Translations under genes and position numbers: made by a program | Shown: positions 3,201-33,026 of the stretch, piece after piece | Numbering within the stretch: the first letter of the stretch is position 1 | Layout of the letters: each line of letters begins with the position of its first letter | The notes under the pieces: generated by a model | What the model was told of the DNA's origin: nothing | Seen by the model: the letters and a program-made list of their open reading frames with translations, nothing else | The model's database searches: none | Assembly (NCBI GenBank): GCA_944327105.1 | Contig: CALVGN010000025.1 | Location: forward strand, 1 to 64,000 | Origin: an uncultured Erysipelotrichaceae bacterium | GTDB lineage: Bacteria > Bacillota_I > Bacilli_A > Erysipelotrichales > Erysipelotrichaceae | Direction: 5' to 3' | Length of the DNA: 64,000 nucleotides

Positions 3201-3860
3201 TCATACTTCGCTGAATACTTTTGAGAACGTCAACTTAGTAAAAACGTCTTCGATCTGCCTGGCGATCTGCTTTGACTCAATCAGCGTTCCCAGTTCGATA
3301 TTGCCCTGCTGGCCATGATAGGACAGATTTGCTGAAGTAATCAATGTCTGCCGCTGGTCTACCGAGATTACTTTCGCGTGCAGGGCTGCCATTTTATCTT
3401 CATCCTGGTGATAGTTATATACCTTCAAAAACCGGCCTTTGTAACGTAGAACCTTATCAAAATCCGGCTGCTTGTCCAGGTCATTGACAAAGAATTTTAC
3501 GAACACGCCCCGCTGGCTCTTCTGAATGATGGTATCGACCAGTTCAGAAAAATACGAGGACAAGGAGTATCCTGTAATCAGGATGTTCCTTTCTGCGCCA
3601 TTGATCATAGACTGCACAACATTCATGGTTGTTCTTGCGTTAATCGAAAATGATGGCGGTGCAGTTACAACTAAGGACACCTTGTCCGCATCTCCGGAAG
3701 TTATTGCATTTTCGAGGATCGATACCAGCTCTGCACATTCCGGATTCGACAATTCAGGGAAGCCCTTTTTTATCATAGGAACAGCGTTGGCTGTCCCGTT
3801 TGCCATATCGCTTTTAACAGTGTTAAAAAGGATTTCTTTGTTTATACTTCCACCTGACAT
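3201..3860 (-). CDS. drmC: DISARM PLD-domain protein DrmC
   Basis: This 219 aa phospholipase D-fold protein carries one HKD-type motif near residues 160-190 (LHAKVISVD followed by LITSANLS and GNIELG). One HKD motif implies a dimeric active site, as in Nuc-type PLD nucleases. Its start overlaps the end of drmB by 19 bases. The order DrmA-DrmB-PLD is diagnostic for DISARM, where DrmC is a core gene of this class; some published work found it dispensable for protection in one system. The reading frame is intact. Identity rests on the PLD motif plus position. Confidence 0.85.
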   Translation of the reverse strand: MSGGSINKEILFNTVKSDMANGTANAVPMIKKGFPELSNPECAELVSILENAITSGDADKVSLVVTAPPSFSINARTTMNVVQSMINGAERNILITGYSLSSYFSELVDTIIQKSQRGVFVKFFVNDLDKQPDFDKVLRYKGRFLKVYNYHQDEDKMAALHAKVISVDQRQTLITSANLSYHGQQGNIELGTLIESKQIARQIEDVFTKLTFSKVFSEV

Positions 3861-26469: not shown

Positions 26470-29400
26470 TTATTCTGGTTTTCGCAATGTATCAATCAAA
26501 TCAATCTTAAAATTAGGATCTTCCGTACACCGATTGTATGCATTGATCCGTTGTTTCAATTGAGTAAAAGCCTTTAATCGATCCGTGCAGTACTCCATCA
26601 CCTGAAGTGAATAGTCTCTCAGTTGCTGAGCCAAAAGGAAAAAGGAGAGATTATTCCGATACGACAACGCACGATTTAACGCCTCCATGAGCCATTGAAG
26701 CGCACCATCTGCATCATTTGCTTCCATTAACATATTTGCCGATGGAATCATGATAGTATCGATATAAGCGCGATCACCTTCCAGTATCGCTTTGCCAACC
26801 TTGGCTGCTTTATCGATACATTGCCTGGTACGAAGAGGGTCCCAATCAATCAAAGCTTGATACCACCCACAGACCAACAGAAAATGCATGGCTTCATAGC
26901 AATCCGGCTGAAGATAAATGTCGATCAGCTGTTGGCATTCGTTGATCAAATCTTTTAAGACGTATTCGTCCATATCACCGGAACGCATCATGATGGTGAT
27001 TTGCGATAGCGTATTATTGATGTAAAGACATAATCGATCAGTCGAAATATATGATCTGGTTAATTCTCGAACATGATTGATTGCTTGAATCAATTTCAAC
27101 AGGATTTGATGCTCCTGCGCTGTTTGTGTATCATAATGACCATTCAGCAACGCATCCTGATAATGCCCATAAATATCCCAATATAAAGCTACGCAAAAAC
27201 AATCATTGCTTTGTTGACTGACGTGTTTCGCCTGGTTGAGCCATTCCACAGCTTCATTGTTAGAATCCAAATCCAATTTGGTCAGGACCATTAATCGATA
27301 TATTTCCATCAAACAGCGATAATCCATTGCTGTAGAAGGTTGGAAATGCGAGATGGCGAATTGTCCGAGTTCAAGAATCGAATCAATACGATCCTGTGGT
27401 AAAACCATCAGCACCTGATAGATTAAATTAAAGTAGTTATCATCACTTATGGTTAAACCATACCGTCTTAATCGATCCAATATACCCAGAACCGTTTCAA
27501 TCAAATATTGTTTTAATTTTTCCTTTCCAAAGGTTTGAATTCGGTATTGATCAACCGGGGACAATGATTGCTCTGCGTCCTGTTTCAGTGGGGACGACCT
27601 AAAACGAGACAATTCATTTGCAAAATAATGATACACTTTCTCTGATACACAATGGCAAAGTTGGCTCATCTGGCGAAGCATTGCTTCCTGAATCAACCGA
27701 TGCATCTGCACCATATCTTCATCAATTTCTAACCACCCGTCTAAAATCAAATCGTTGATATCATCTTTAGTTTCCAATTGATTGATCGCCTGCACATCCC
27801 GGATATCGATCCCCATTTGACATACGCTGCATACGGTCGCTAAAACAGCACGTTGCTTCTGCGTTAAATTTAAAAATTGAAACAGTGTATCCAAGATTTC
27901 AGCAATTTTGACTCGCATGATCTGCTCATCTTTTTCGTATGTCACTTTTTCCGCAGCAATCTCACTCAATGAAGAACGGCCGATCGACTCGGCTGCCTCA
28001 TGAACACTAATATGCGCATTGGCAATAAGCTTTGCGATCAACTCGATCAACAAGGTATGCGACTGACATTGACAAACGATTCGAGTGAAATCCTCGATTT
28101 CATCGGATTGGATCGGCTTCCCAAGATTTGCTTCAAATACAGCCCTCAACGAGCGCAAATCATCAATAGGCAAAATAGGAAGGCGAATGAATGCATTCGA
28201 TTCGATATTTTTTCGTGATATCAAGATAAGTTGGATATTCGTATGAATTAACCAATCCAACTCATTCAATGATCCATCAAAATCATCAATGACAATCAAT
28301 GCACGTTGATCCGCAAGCAATTTGCGAAGCAATGTCTTCTTTCTTGTCAACGCAGTACCTGAATCATCCAAAGCATCATATCCATCTATTCCATTAATTG
28401 AAATTTGTGTCCCATCGGCAATAGTCTTATCGATGCTGCCACGGTAATGCAGATATAAAATGCAGTCAAAATCCGAGCGATGTTTCGTTAAATAATATCG
28501 TACCAATGTACTTTTACCGATTCCGCCCATTCCGGATACACATACGCCATGGGTATTTGTTTGATTAAGCAGTTTACGCAGCTGATCGAGCTCATTTTGT
28601 CTGCCAAATACATATCGGGGCTCAACAATATTTGTCGAAAACACTCTAGGGATTTGGGGGTCTGCATATTTTTCTAAGTGATTTAACTCCCTTAGCACAT
28701 CTTCCGTTGACGAGTAACGATCAGCAAAATAAGCAGCAATCGTGTGATGAAAGAAATCAGTTAAGGCATCATAGAATCGATCATCGCAATAATCCAACGG
28801 ATACAAAATTGCATCACGGTCAAAAATCGAATCCATCTGACACTCAAAAGCCAGGGGTGTGCGTCTAAAAAGTAAGTAGAATAGCAATGCACCCACGCTA
28901 AACACATCCGAGTGCACCCCAAGACGGTCAATCTGACCCGTTTCCTGTTCGACCGGCGCAAATCCTTTTGTATAGGCAAAGCGAAAATCCGAAGGATTAT
29001 CCTTAGACCTTCGTTTTGAATTGATCGGCATCAGCGAATCAAAATCACAAAGTAAAATTTGAGTATCAAATCCTTCAACCAGTAAAATGTTATCTGGTTT
29101 TAGATCGAGATAAAGATATCCATGCGCGTGAATTCTCGATAGCGCATATGCGCACAATATCGTCAAATGGATACATTCCTTCAACGTTTGCGGATGATAA
29201 CTGGCTAAAGTTTTTTTTGAAGAATAACTGCAAACCGTATAGAGCGTATTGTTGGTTTCAAATAAATCCAACTGATTTACCAAATGCGCATAATTTGAAC
29301 CCGAATAGAACAAAGCATTTGTCAACGTAAAGTCCTGTTTGACTTTCCTTTTTTCCTGTAAAAAAACTGTCTGATCTGTTGTCGCAACAATTAAAGTTTG

Positions 29401-29637
29401 ATTGTTATCACGTACGATCGCCATTCTAAACGGATAGAATTCTTTAATGCGGTACCGTAGCTTGACATTATTGATGCTATAGCGAATCGCTTCGTAAAGA
29501 ATACTCGAACCGCCGCGGGAAATCTCACTTTCAATATAAAAGCTCAAACATTCACCTTGGTTGTTTGAGAAATCAAGTCTGGTTCCATTTTTCAAAGCCA
29601 CACGATGGTCCAAGCGATGCTCCGTTCTATCCTCCAC
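26470..29637 (-). CDS. Ser/Thr protein kinase fused to STAND (NB-ARC-like) NTPase
   Basis: A 1055 aa multidomain protein. Residues 35-320 are a Hanks-type kinase: SRGGSS glycine loop at 40-45, the ATP-anchoring Lys in RIKEFYP (K65), DLKPDN catalytic loop at 178-183, CDFD in place of DFG at 197-200, and a GFAPVEQ activation segment. Residues 340-620 are a STAND NTPase: P-loop SGMGGIGKST at 368-377, Walker B ALIVIDDF near 444, and ISRK sensor. The remainder is helical repeats, TPR-like. No transmembrane segment is visible. STAND proteins switch by ligand-driven oligomerisation, and fusion to a kinase suggests signal-dependent phosphorylation. Start is uncertain: GTG 29637 or a downstream GTG/TTG; GGAGG lies just after the first GTG. 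The gene lies between a regulator and a lipoprotein with short gaps. Confidence 0.8.
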   Translation of the reverse strand: MEDRTEHRLDHRVALKNGTRLDFSNNQGECLSFYIESEISRGGSSILYEAIRYSINNVKLRYRIKEFYPFRMAIVRDNNQTLIVATTDQTVFLQEKRKVKQDFTLTNALFYSGSNYAHLVNQLDLFETNNTLYTVCSYSSKKTLASYHPQTLKECIHLTILCAYALSRIHAHGYLYLDLKPDNILLVEGFDTQILLCDFDSLMPINSKRRSKDNPSDFRFAYTKGFAPVEQETGQIDRLGVHSDVFSVGALLFYLLFRRTPLAFECQMDSIFDRDAILYPLDYCDDRFYDALTDFFHHTIAAYFADRYSSTEDVLRELNHLEKYADPQIPRVFSTNIVEPRYVFGRQNELDQLRKLLNQTNTHGVCVSGMGGIGKSTLVRYYLTKHRSDFDCILYLHYRGSIDKTIADGTQISINGIDGYDALDDSGTALTRKKTLLRKLLADQRALIVIDDFDGSLNELDWLIHTNIQLILISRKNIESNAFIRLPILPIDDLRSLRAVFEANLGKPIQSDEIEDFTRIVCQCQSHTLLIELIAKLIANAHISVHEAAESIGRSSLSEIAAEKVTYEKDEQIMRVKIAEILDTLFQFLNLTQKQRAVLATVCSVCQMGIDIRDVQAINQLETKDDINDLILDGWLEIDEDMVQMHRLIQEAMLRQMSQLCHCVSEKVYHYFANELSRFRSSPLKQDAEQSLSPVDQYRIQTFGKEKLKQYLIETVLGILDRLRRYGLTISDDNYFNLIYQVLMVLPQDRIDSILELGQFAISHFQPSTAMDYRCLMEIYRLMVLTKLDLDSNNEAVEWLNQAKHVSQQSNDCFCVALYWDIYGHYQDALLNGHYDTQTAQEHQILLKLIQAINHVRELTRSYISTDRLCLYINNTLSQITIMMRSGDMDEYVLKDLINECQQLIDIYLQPDCYEAMHFLLVCGWYQALIDWDPLRTRQCIDKAAKVGKAILEGDRAYIDTIMIPSANMLMEANDADGALQWLMEALNRALSYRNNLSFFLLAQQLRDYSLQVMEYCTDRLKAFTQLKQRINAYNRCTEDPNFKIDLIDTLRKPE

Positions 29638-30936: not shown

Positions 30937-31059
30937 ACCAGATCACTATTAAAATTTAACATATCGTTTTGAGAATCCCATTCGTTACCTCAAACCACTC
31001 CTATTATGCGACATGTTCGTAGCAGATTTGCAACTCAATTCATACAGCAATGCTTCCGT

Positions 31060-31515
31060 TTATCATTTCAACCATAGCACAATAAAGATGTATTCCCTTA
31101 AACTATTGGTTTTGCCCTTAATAACTAAAATACTTTATCTACGTCGCCATTTATATTGCAATTTATATCGCCATTTATATTGCCATTTTCATTGCCATTG
31201 GCAATGATCGGCATTTCCTGTGTATTTTCAATCGGAAATACCACCTTAATAAAGTGCTCAGCTACTTTAAATTGACTTTATAGGATATGCCTTCAATATC
31301 CTGCTCATGCCTGAGCCAAGTTGTTCCACTAAGCCGACATCCTTGAATACGCGCATCAGTTCCCTATTTCTGGGCATACTGCTGCAGCCGAAGAAATCAT
31401 CGATACTTTGTCCGGGAATAAATCCACCATAAGATGTCATCATGATTCTGTCACTGAAAATCTCAATTACCGGAGGTTTGTAATATTGTTCGGTTCCGTC
31501 ACATTGGTATCGATC
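31060..31515 (-). pseudogene. Remnant of AlbA/COG2865 ATP-binding regulator
   Basis: Reading the minus strand from 31500 gives DGTEQYYKPPVIEIFSDRIM, TSYGGFIPGQ, SMPRNRELMR and VGLVEQLGSGMSRILKAYP. This is the C-terminal ATPase-like part of COG2865 (AlbA_2) regulators. A TAA at 31267-31269 interrupts it, and a one-base shift continues with FKVAEHFIKVVFPIEN and then a low-complexity linker of Asn-Gly-Asn/Asp-Ile repeats. The stops at 31125-31127 and beyond show further decay. An in-frame stop also precedes the fragment. Only about 150 codons of the usual 450-500 remain. Confidence 0.85.
31151..31204. repeat. 12-bp imperfect tandem repeat
   Basis: Four to five imperfect copies of a 12-bp unit like GCCATTTATATT. 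They encode the Asn-Gly-Asn/Asp-Ile linker of the decayed AlbA-type regulator, so they are a coding low-complexity relic and not a regulatory array. Confidence 0.75.
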
Positions 31516-31547
31516 AAAGTGCTATGACCTCGCTCTTTTTGGCTCCA

Positions 31548-31805
31548 TCACCCTGATTCGCCTTCCTTAAAGGAATAGTGTAACGAGACATTGCACTCTT
31601 TTTCTAACTCTTTTTCAATTTCTTCAATGGACGGAAGACTGCTTCGCAGCTCCTCCGGCAATGACCTGGCAATTTGATTTCTCCATTCCGCTACACCAAT
31701 CGGATTCAGGTATCCAGCCAGAGAATACTCTACAACAGTTTTATTTTTGCCTTTAGTTAGTGGGAGAAGAATTCGTAAATAATATTTAAATAGCAGAAAA
31801 GTGAT
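31548..31805 (-). pseudogene. Remnant of YhcG/DUF1016 PDDEXK nuclease
   Basis: An open minus-strand frame ends at the TGA at 31548-31550 and reads KTVVEYSLAGYLNPIGVAEW, then SLPEELRSSLPSIEEIEKEL. The VEY-L, PIGVAEY and LPEEL--SLP-IEELE blocks are the C-terminal signature of YhcG (DUF1016) nucleases. The frame is closed upstream by a stop at 31806-31808, so the N-terminal three quarters, including the catalytic core, are gone. Confidence 0.75.
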
Positions 31806-31862
31806 TCATATAGTTGTTAACGTAGTACATTAATGAAGTCAGTAACACAATAGAAACATATT

Positions 31863-31909
31863 CCCTTAATCACTCGGTTTTCCCCTTAAAATCAGATATA
31901 ATTTAAGGG
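31863..31909. promoter_or_regulatory. Phased CCCTTAA operator upstream of fic
   Basis: Three boxes with starts exactly 20 bp apart: CCCTTAA at 31863 and 31883, and the inverted TTAAGGG at 31903. The ATG of fic is at 31931 and AAGGTGGG precedes it. The same three-box arrangement recurs just after the gene (32980-33026). Phasing of two helical turns fits a multimeric DNA-binding protein, possibly the Fic protein's own C-terminal winged helix. Confidence 0.6.
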
Positions 31910-31930
31910 AAAAGATTCTAAGGTGGGTTT

Positions 31931-32977
31931 ATGAGAGCATTCAATTATTCCGAAATGAAAAATATGAAGTGGGATTCTAATATTCTCGGTCTAATAGCCG
32001 CAATCTATAAACAAGTCGGCAAACAGGAACTTTATTTGAAGCAACGCTCGGATGAATTGGAAAAACTTATTGAAATCGCCAAGATACAGAGTACGGACGC
32101 CTCTAATGCCATAGAAGGCATTGTGACCACAAGTACACGAATCAAACAGCTTGTGCAGGAGAAAACAACCCCACGAAATCGAAATGAAATGGAAATCGCT
32201 GGTTATCGCGATGTACTAAATATCATCCATAAGAGCTTTGATGCTATTCCGATCACACAGAACTACATCCTGCAACTTCATAAAATTCTCTACAGTCATA
32301 TGAACAATCCTATGGCAGGCAGAACAAAAAACGTTCAAAACTATATCAACGCCACCTTCCCGGACGGTCATGTGGAGAATCTATTTACACCGCTCGCACC
32401 CTTTGAAACACCAGAAGCACTCGACAAAATCTGCGCGGAATACAATCGTGTCATTGGCAATATGGAAGTCGAGCCACTGATTATCATTCCGGTTTTCATC
32501 CACGATTTCCTATGCATCCATCCGTTTAATGACGGTAATGGCAGAATGAGTCGCCTGCTGACAACGCTTCTGCTCTACCAAAATGGATTCTATGTTGGAA
32601 AATATATTTCCCTGGAGACAAAAATCGCAAAGAACAAAGATTTGTATTACGATGCGCTCAGGCAAGCGCAGCTTGGATGGCATAATGGAACAGACGACCC
32701 TGTTCCGTTTATAAAATATCTGCTCGGCACTGTCCTTGCGGCATACCATGACTTCGAAGAGCGCTTTGCTTTAATTGAAACAAAACTGTCAGCTATAGAA
32801 ACAGTACGACGAGCTACAAAGAATAAAATTGGGCGTTTTAAGAAACAAGACATCCGTGAACTATGTCCTTCTTTAAGCATCAGCTCCATTGAAGGCGCAC
32901 TTCGTAAACTGGTTGCATCCGGCGAATTGATACGAGAAGGAAAAGGAAAAAATATCTGTTATTACAGAGCGAACTAA
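31931..32977 (+). CDS. Fic family protein (class II, winged-helix C-terminus)
   Basis: A 348 aa Fic-domain protein. The catalytic motif HPFNDGNGRMSR at 197-208 is complete, and the inhibitory helix motif SNAIEG at 58-63 fits (S/T)xxxE(G/N) upstream of the core, i.e. class II autoinhibition. Residues 285-348 form a winged helix (KQDIRELCPSLSISSIEGAL, LVASGELIREGKG). Fic enzymes usually transfer AMP to target proteins; the substrate is unknown. It is a lone plus-strand gene between decayed remnants, with AAGGTGGG upstream of the start. The flanking phased boxes suggest autoregulation. No TGGTNNNACCA sites lie in it, in line with acquisition. Confidence 0.9.
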   Translation: MRAFNYSEMKNMKWDSNILGLIAAIYKQVGKQELYLKQRSDELEKLIEIAKIQSTDASNAIEGIVTTSTRIKQLVQEKTTPRNRNEMEIAGYRDVLNIIHKSFDAIPITQNYILQLHKILYSHMNNPMAGRTKNVQNYINATFPDGHVENLFTPLAPFETPEALDKICAEYNRVIGNMEVEPLIIIPVFIHDFLCIHPFNDGNGRMSRLLTTLLLYQNGFYVGKYISLETKIAKNKDLYYDALRQAQLGWHNGTDDPVPFIKYLLGTVLAAYHDFEERFALIETKLSAIETVRRATKNKIGRFKKQDIRELCPSLSISSIEGALRKLVASGELIREGKGKNICYYRAN

Positions 32978-32979
32978 TT

Positions 32980-33026
32980 TCCTTAATAATCGTCATTTTC
33001 CCTTAAATATCCTGCGATTTTAAGGG
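32980..33026. promoter_or_regulatory. Second phased CCCTTAA box array downstream of fic
   Basis: TCCTTAA at 32980, CCCTTAA at 33000 and TTAAGGG at 33020 repeat the 20-bp phasing and orientation of the array before fic. The final base of the fic stop is 3 bases away. It could control a gene now lost on the minus strand (see the remnant at 33003-33178). Confidence 0.5.

Follow-up and report, generated by a model that had tools for sequence, protein, structure and literature searches.

The window, by which we mean the whole 64,000-nucleotide stretch of DNA that was analysed, contains a fic gene on the plus strand (31931–32977), encoding a Fic protein of 348 residues (PF02661, E 9.4e-17) with a winged-helix-like C-terminal domain. 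Class II Fic proteins carry an N-terminal inhibitory motif of the form (S/T)xxxE(G/N), and the sequence SNAIEG at residues 58–63 (32102–32119, plus strand) has this form, which places the protein in class II. The catalytic motif HPFx(D/E)GNGR is matched by HPFNDGNGRMSR at residues 197–208 (32519–32554, plus strand), and most of its residues are invariant in an alignment of 13 sequences (alignment A1). In an AlphaFold2 prediction of moderate confidence (mean pLDDT 77.3), the C-terminal domain (residues 288–346; 32792–32968, plus strand) has the order helix-helix-helix-strand-strand, with its third helix at residues 317–329. This is the order of a winged helix, and the domain assignment is supported but not proven, because a Pfam search gave no HTH family matching the C-terminus of Fic.

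The closest solved relative of the protein is 8uqu (E 8.2e-72). Foldseek likewise gave 8uqu, SoFic, and the fold also matches 3eqx, 3zcn and 8cil. SoFic, which is a single-protein anti-phage defence Fic, is the best PADLOC model (E 5.4e-38), and the likeness extends to class II membership and to the matches with 3eqx and 3zcn, although the score of 66.5 bits against the NCBIfam equivalog for SoFic (NF046030) lies below the curated cut-off of 550.

The gene is flanked on both sides by short boxes, CCCTTAA or its inverse TTAAGGG, at the positions that an earlier note on this DNA had given. The upstream boxes are all exact: CCCTTAA at 31863–31869 and 31883–31889 (as read on the plus strand; feature strand minus), and TTAAGGG at 31903–31909 (plus). 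Downstream, TCCTTAA at 32980–32986 (minus) has one mismatch, while CCCTTAA at 33000–33006 (minus) and TTAAGGG at 33020–33026 (plus) are exact. The heptamer occurs 11 times in the window, compared to 5.3 times (sd 2.0) in shuffled sequences, and none of 100 shuffles reaches 11. A direct pair of boxes with a spacer of 10–16 is found in the available sequence of the whole genome only at 31095 and at 31863.

The upstream array sits on a promoter. If the TTAAGGG box at 31903 is taken as position 0, the candidate operator boxes are at −40, −20 and 0, with the −20 box inside the spacer between −35 and −10, and the 0 box abutting the −10 hexamer. The latter is a perfect TATAAT (31897–31902, plus strand) at the position that is the consensus in relatives. 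The −35 position (31874–31879, plus strand) is degenerate here, reading TCGGTT where the consensus of the relatives is TTGACT. The window promoter has neither the −73/−53 pair nor the +20 box of some relatives.

Two further heptamers, at 31095 and 31115, had been described as a partial third copy of the array inside a decayed regulator gene; both are exact, and they lie beside rather than in such a gene. The region around them (31041–31154, plus strand) aligns with the fic promoter region (31807–31932) over about 115 nt with a score of 97, the best of 300 shuffles scoring 78. Because of this alignment above the shuffles, the third copy is most likely a diverged and decayed duplicate of the fic promoter region. 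Two relicts on the minus strand stand between it and the fic promoter. One (31270–31521) is from a HATPase_c_4 gene (PF13749, E 6.7e-14; COG2865 was the label used in the earlier note), and the other (31551–31805) resembles the YhcG_C nuclease domain (PF06250, E 4.5e-07) at 30.3 bits, below the Pfam cut-off of 32.5. The proposed link of the arrays to COG2865-type regulator genes was not supported: neither relict gave a tblastn match in the other loci compared, and such genes were rejected as co-owners of the arrays.

Elsewhere in the same genome (G000:C54:21040-22845) a sequence that matches the HATPase_c_4 relict (36% identity) is separated by about 0.9 kb from a distant match to Fic (27% identity), so that the two kinds of gene may be neighbours there. 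The window also encodes a 1,055-residue protein with protein kinase and NB-ARC/AAA domains (26470–29637, minus strand), which matches the PD-T4-6 and mads defence kinases. It is adjoined by a 415-residue protein with no match in the three libraries searched.

Relatives of fic were taken from one scan of a genome collection, as the best 80 of 363 matches; these have 79–89% identity and, to judge from their titles, come from many genera. Three had less than 160 nt of upstream sequence and were left out of the upstream count. At least one CCCTTA or TAAGGG box was found upstream of all the remaining 77, at least two in 73 and at least three in 62, while of 1,789 control windows taken from these loci only 3 had two boxes, none had more, and none of 480 intragenic windows had two. 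The 77 loci are kin and not independent draws, so these counts measure conservation rather than independent events. The earlier note had proposed that the pattern would be accidental if homologous fic genes lacked boxes. This is not what was found, and a chance origin was rejected on the conservation among fic relatives.

Boxes most often stand 20 bp apart, as 83 direct-inverted pairs and 24 direct-direct ones do. A common frame was made by anchoring on the TTAAGGG near the start codon, which was possible in 92 of 96 non-identical loci (the four without an anchor of 6 of 7 letters were left out); the box at 0 is therefore present by choice. With at least 6 of 7 letters required, boxes occur at −20 in 83 of the 92 loci, the positions −40, −53 and −73 are occupied in 41, 53 and 48 loci respectively, and a +20 box over the ribosome site is present in 14 of 90. 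TTGAC is found at −29 in 72 of 92 loci and TATAAT at −6 in 74 (one mismatch allowed), giving a promoter spacer of 17 bp that contains the −20 box and is followed, directly after the −10, by the 0 box. The two-turn phasing proposed earlier is thus sound as geometry, in that most loci have a box 20 bp before the anchor; the cooperative binding deduced from it stays conjectural.

A downstream pair, CCCTTAA-N13-TTAAGGG with at least 12 of 14 letters matching, was found 22–26 nt after the stop codon in 27 of the 96 loci, in 21 of them at base 23. Among 2,160 control windows the best value is 11 letters, seen in seven, so that none of them qualifies. Behind the pair there is a tail, AAGCATCT, in 16 of the 27 loci, compared to 3 of the other 69. 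By eye, this tail looks like the first arm of a putative terminator hairpin. The downstream array in the window belongs to this conserved kind, and has no terminator-like site directly after it.

Distant Fic relatives were collected as a set of 185 loci, some of them identical, from which matches with an incomplete frame or starting after residue 12 were excluded. In these the geometry is kept and the word is changed; by eye, the words include TCGCCTAA, TCTCCCAA, ATCGTCCA, TTTAGTCA and TCTGCATA, and among the matches listed there are about 12 box types with one geometry. The second fic relative in the genome of the window (G000:C3, 47%) also has a different word by eye. For an automatic count we used 64 promoters whose Fic proteins are less than 80% alike. 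An inverted repeat with starts 18–24 bp apart was found in 48 of these, compared to a mean of 10.7 and a maximum of 17 in 20 mononucleotide shuffles and to 5–13 in six intragenic sets; the other 16 promoters have no dyad. A third copy is also in the 20-bp frame in 28 of the 64 (shuffled mean 1.4, maximum 3; intragenic 0–1). Several of the automatic dyads seem to be off target (for example L005, L012, L031 and L235). Upstream of fic on an Acidovorax plasmid (L349) there is an array-like set, TTGGGG.../...CCCCA, which includes two direct copies 20 bp apart; the array design may thus reach Betaproteobacteria.

The 40 clearest arrays were used to ask which part of Fic the box word follows, after 24 of the 64 had been dropped for having no dyad or a third copy with fewer than 5 of 8 letters. 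After control for the Fic domain, box similarity tracks the C-terminal domain (partial r 0.28, reached in 0 of 2,000 permutations); after control for the C-terminal domain, it does not track the Fic domain (partial r 0.04, 573 of 2,000 permutations). The third helix alone does not separate the two domains (partial r 0.20 for the helix and 0.25 for the Fic domain). The whole-domain comparison was run after the helix-only version, and is to that extent post hoc. Because the helix alone is undiscriminating and some of the automatic box calls are wrong, the covariation supports a link between box and C-terminal domain rather than proving it.

Ten genomes have two candidate fic promoters, and in eight of these both promoters are in the set. 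None of the eight pairs shares the same box, although one box is ambiguous in G420, G460 and G463. No wider regulon was seen: the dyad pattern occurs in 33 of 296 genomes of the class, and in 7 of the 33 it is at a fic relative (5 of 30 loci that were fetched, plus G000 and G174). A reversed control pattern occurs in about 26 genomes by a hand count of the same 296-genome table, and a regulon beyond fic was rejected on this comparison.

We also looked at the genomic setting. Pairwise homology between loci mostly spans the gene and its promoter array. In 3,732 pairs with enough sequence it extends a median of 65 nt beyond the ATG on the upstream side, and in 4,268 pairs it ends downstream at about the stop codon, with a few pairs reaching 100–140 nt further and some reaching kilobases. 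Faster divergence outside genes contributes to this loss of homology near the arrays. In several loci the DNA in front of the array is the tail of a gene for the large subunit of terminase. Without selection, terminase is directly upstream of fic in 25 of the 185 loci (14 of 45 viral, 10 of 78 genome_contigs and 1 of 62 other genomes), a portal gene is downstream in 13, and both are present in 12. When loci were selected because they showed a terminase tail, all 10 had terminase as the gene before fic, and among downstream genes picked after viewing the first residues 7 of 8 are portal; two more proteins compared along with these eight are neighbours at other sites. A separately annotated phage record has the order terminase, fic relative (as a hypothetical protein), small genes and then portal.

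The reverse view was obtained from relatives of one such terminase (the best 80 of at least 600). A portal gene is within reach in 79 of these; 38 of the 79 junctions measure at most 90 nt, and 41 have inserts of 245–1,947 nt, two with a Fic gene. An extra gene inserted between otherwise adjacent phage genes is termed a moron. Because the terminase-portal junctions are often empty and otherwise carry various inserts, two of them with Fic, it is concluded that they form a moron slot with fic as one of its cargoes. The copy in the window (L003) does not belong to the 25 loci beside terminase, and the phage slot is one recurrent home of fic and not the sole one.

Sampling of the cargo at this junction (L267–L346) gave the toxin ParE (L267), the antitoxin RelB (L303), HTH_3 proteins (L276 and L344), a gene resembling PAPS reductase (L324) and an HTH_17-Fic protein (L317); the junction is a phage slot with toxin-antitoxin genes. 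In L212 the end of the terminase gene is duplicated, with one copy before fic and one after it (at about 3550–3760 of the locus), which hints at how the fic unit was inserted. A short terminase tail is found before the array at chromosomal fic genes in L034, L042, L047, L058, L065, L082, L092 and L102, and these tails are perhaps phage scars. In L175–L177, L182 and L183 a phage fic gene stands before long genes (736–800 residues) and not after terminase; in L175 the gene before fic encodes a tail protein.

What, then, recognises the boxes? One answer would be another regulator of the host or of a phage, with fic merely as its target. The link of box to Fic is correlative, and the test of it hangs on automatic box calls and on the domain limits chosen, which counts in favour of this explanation. 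We nevertheless hold it to be improbable in view of a box that differs between Fic subfamilies under a constant geometry, of co-resident promoters without a shared box (with the three ambiguous genomes noted above), of a dyad that is not a recurrent site elsewhere, and of the precedent of CccR discussed below. The downstream array might also be a promoter of similar build on the opposite strand, from which RNA antisense to fic would be transcribed, and its other strand does show the box order known from upstream (direct, inverted, inverted). However, the reverse strand of the downstream pair in relatives has no good promoter hexamers (mean matches over 27 loci of 3.6 for −10 and 2.9 for −35 out of 6, compared to 5.2 and 4.6 upstream in 92 loci). 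An antisense promoter was rejected for these poor hexamers, and we give it hardly any weight.

The earlier note had also suggested that the arrays could be the ends of a mobile unit that carried fic; as such they would be recognised by the recombinase that moved the gene. Part of this stands, in that some phages do have a fic unit with arrays between terminase and portal. Most homology between loci breaks off close to the arrays, and the best 80 of the 363 relatives come from many genera, as would suit a mobile unit. As recombination ends, however, the arrays are a very unlikely proposition. Relative to one another they are direct rather than inverted, the downstream pair is missing from 69 of 96 loci, and the box follows the C-terminal domain of Fic. 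Break points vary even among near-identical pairs, for example inside the terminase tail in L058 and L092, and no inverted terminal repeats were found at shared break points in the pairs compared. Because the two arrays share one orientation and the upstream one is the promoter region, in a fixed register, we consider them to be operators and not recombination ends.

The suggestion that the boxes are operators is supported, since they sit on a promoter, are conserved, and have a word that tracks the C-terminal domain. Very probably they are operator half-sites of Fic itself, which would bind them through its C-terminal domain and repress its own promoter; Fic is the most likely repressor because the box word follows that domain and because the box positions are conserved on the promoter. 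The sequence provides the position, phasing and conservation of the boxes, their covariation with the C-terminal domain and the recurrence of the array downstream, and from these we infer how the switch might work. A Fic dimer would bind an inverted pair, with starts 20 bp apart on the same face of the DNA, through its two winged-helix-type domains. On the −20/0 pair it would cover the −10 and the transcription start, and shut the promoter off. Extra boxes in the same frame (−40, the −73/−53 pair and, in some loci, the +20 box over the ribosome site) would allow more binding, possibly cooperative. Autorepression would then limit the amount of an AMP-transferase that may be toxic. The array of three boxes after the gene is most simply explained as an auxiliary operator, which might be looped to the promoter over the gene or act as a roadblock.

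Autorepression of this kind has a precedent in the Fic protein CccR from Yersinia pseudotuberculosis, which through its C-terminal HTH protects inverted repeats close to the −35/−10 of its own gene and represses its own expression (PMC9755527). According to the same source, Fic proteins of class II are very widespread, and little is known of their control. CccR and the proteins described here both combine a Fic motif with a C-terminal DNA-binding domain, which is predicted in our case, and in both the inverted repeats overlap the −35/−10 of the gene itself, with the −35 of the window being degenerate. The differences are that CccR is a T6SS effector and has a single pair, AGATAATCAT-N26, with 36 bp from start to start compared to 20 bp here, whereas the present loci, which come from Firmicutes and phages, have as many as six boxes set 20 bp apart in one frame, and some have a further array behind the gene.

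Other known systems are less close. The portion of the SoFic report consulted describes no array (PMC12249575). CbFic2 of Coxiella burnetii, seen above as the fold match 8cil, is a DNA-binding Fic enzyme, but is directed at the host, and a term search of the available text gave no array at its own promoter (PMC10628234). The phage units resemble phage morons (compare PMC6469090), each being an extra gene with its own promoter and often a terminator-like tail between otherwise adjacent phage genes; the window copy differs in that it does not adjoin terminase. Autorepression by a Fic-HTH protein (CccR) and the presence of SoFic-like proteins in defence are already known. Apart from CccR, the papers listed in searches of the open-licence literature (which excludes preprints) included none on Fic operators or on fic as a moron; in particular, none was seen there on a phased multi-box array, on a further array following the gene, on box words that vary across the family or on fic as a moron between terminase and portal.

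Autorepression by Fic could be extended to a bolder proposal, which we put forward as a rather unlikely one: that the operator specificities of Fic act like phage immunity groups, with one gene serving as toxin, repressor and exclusion marker and with its end arrays looped together. A resident Fic would silence an incoming fic gene with matching boxes, while a fic gene with foreign boxes would enter unrepressed and be briefly toxic. The variety of boxes among the fic genes at one phage slot agrees with this proposal, and so does the lack of a shared box in co-resident pairs, although one box is ambiguous in three of the eight genomes concerned and eight are too few to prove it.

As regards autorepression itself, the boxes reported in the earlier note appear to be the visible tip of a family of Fic operators, which has about 12 box types by eye and one geometry among the matches listed; some of the related fic genes are carried by phages together with a switch of this kind. 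In a Fic family with readable operators, the binding code of the C-terminal domain, the way in which the enzyme is controlled and the part played by the copies in phages all become directly testable.
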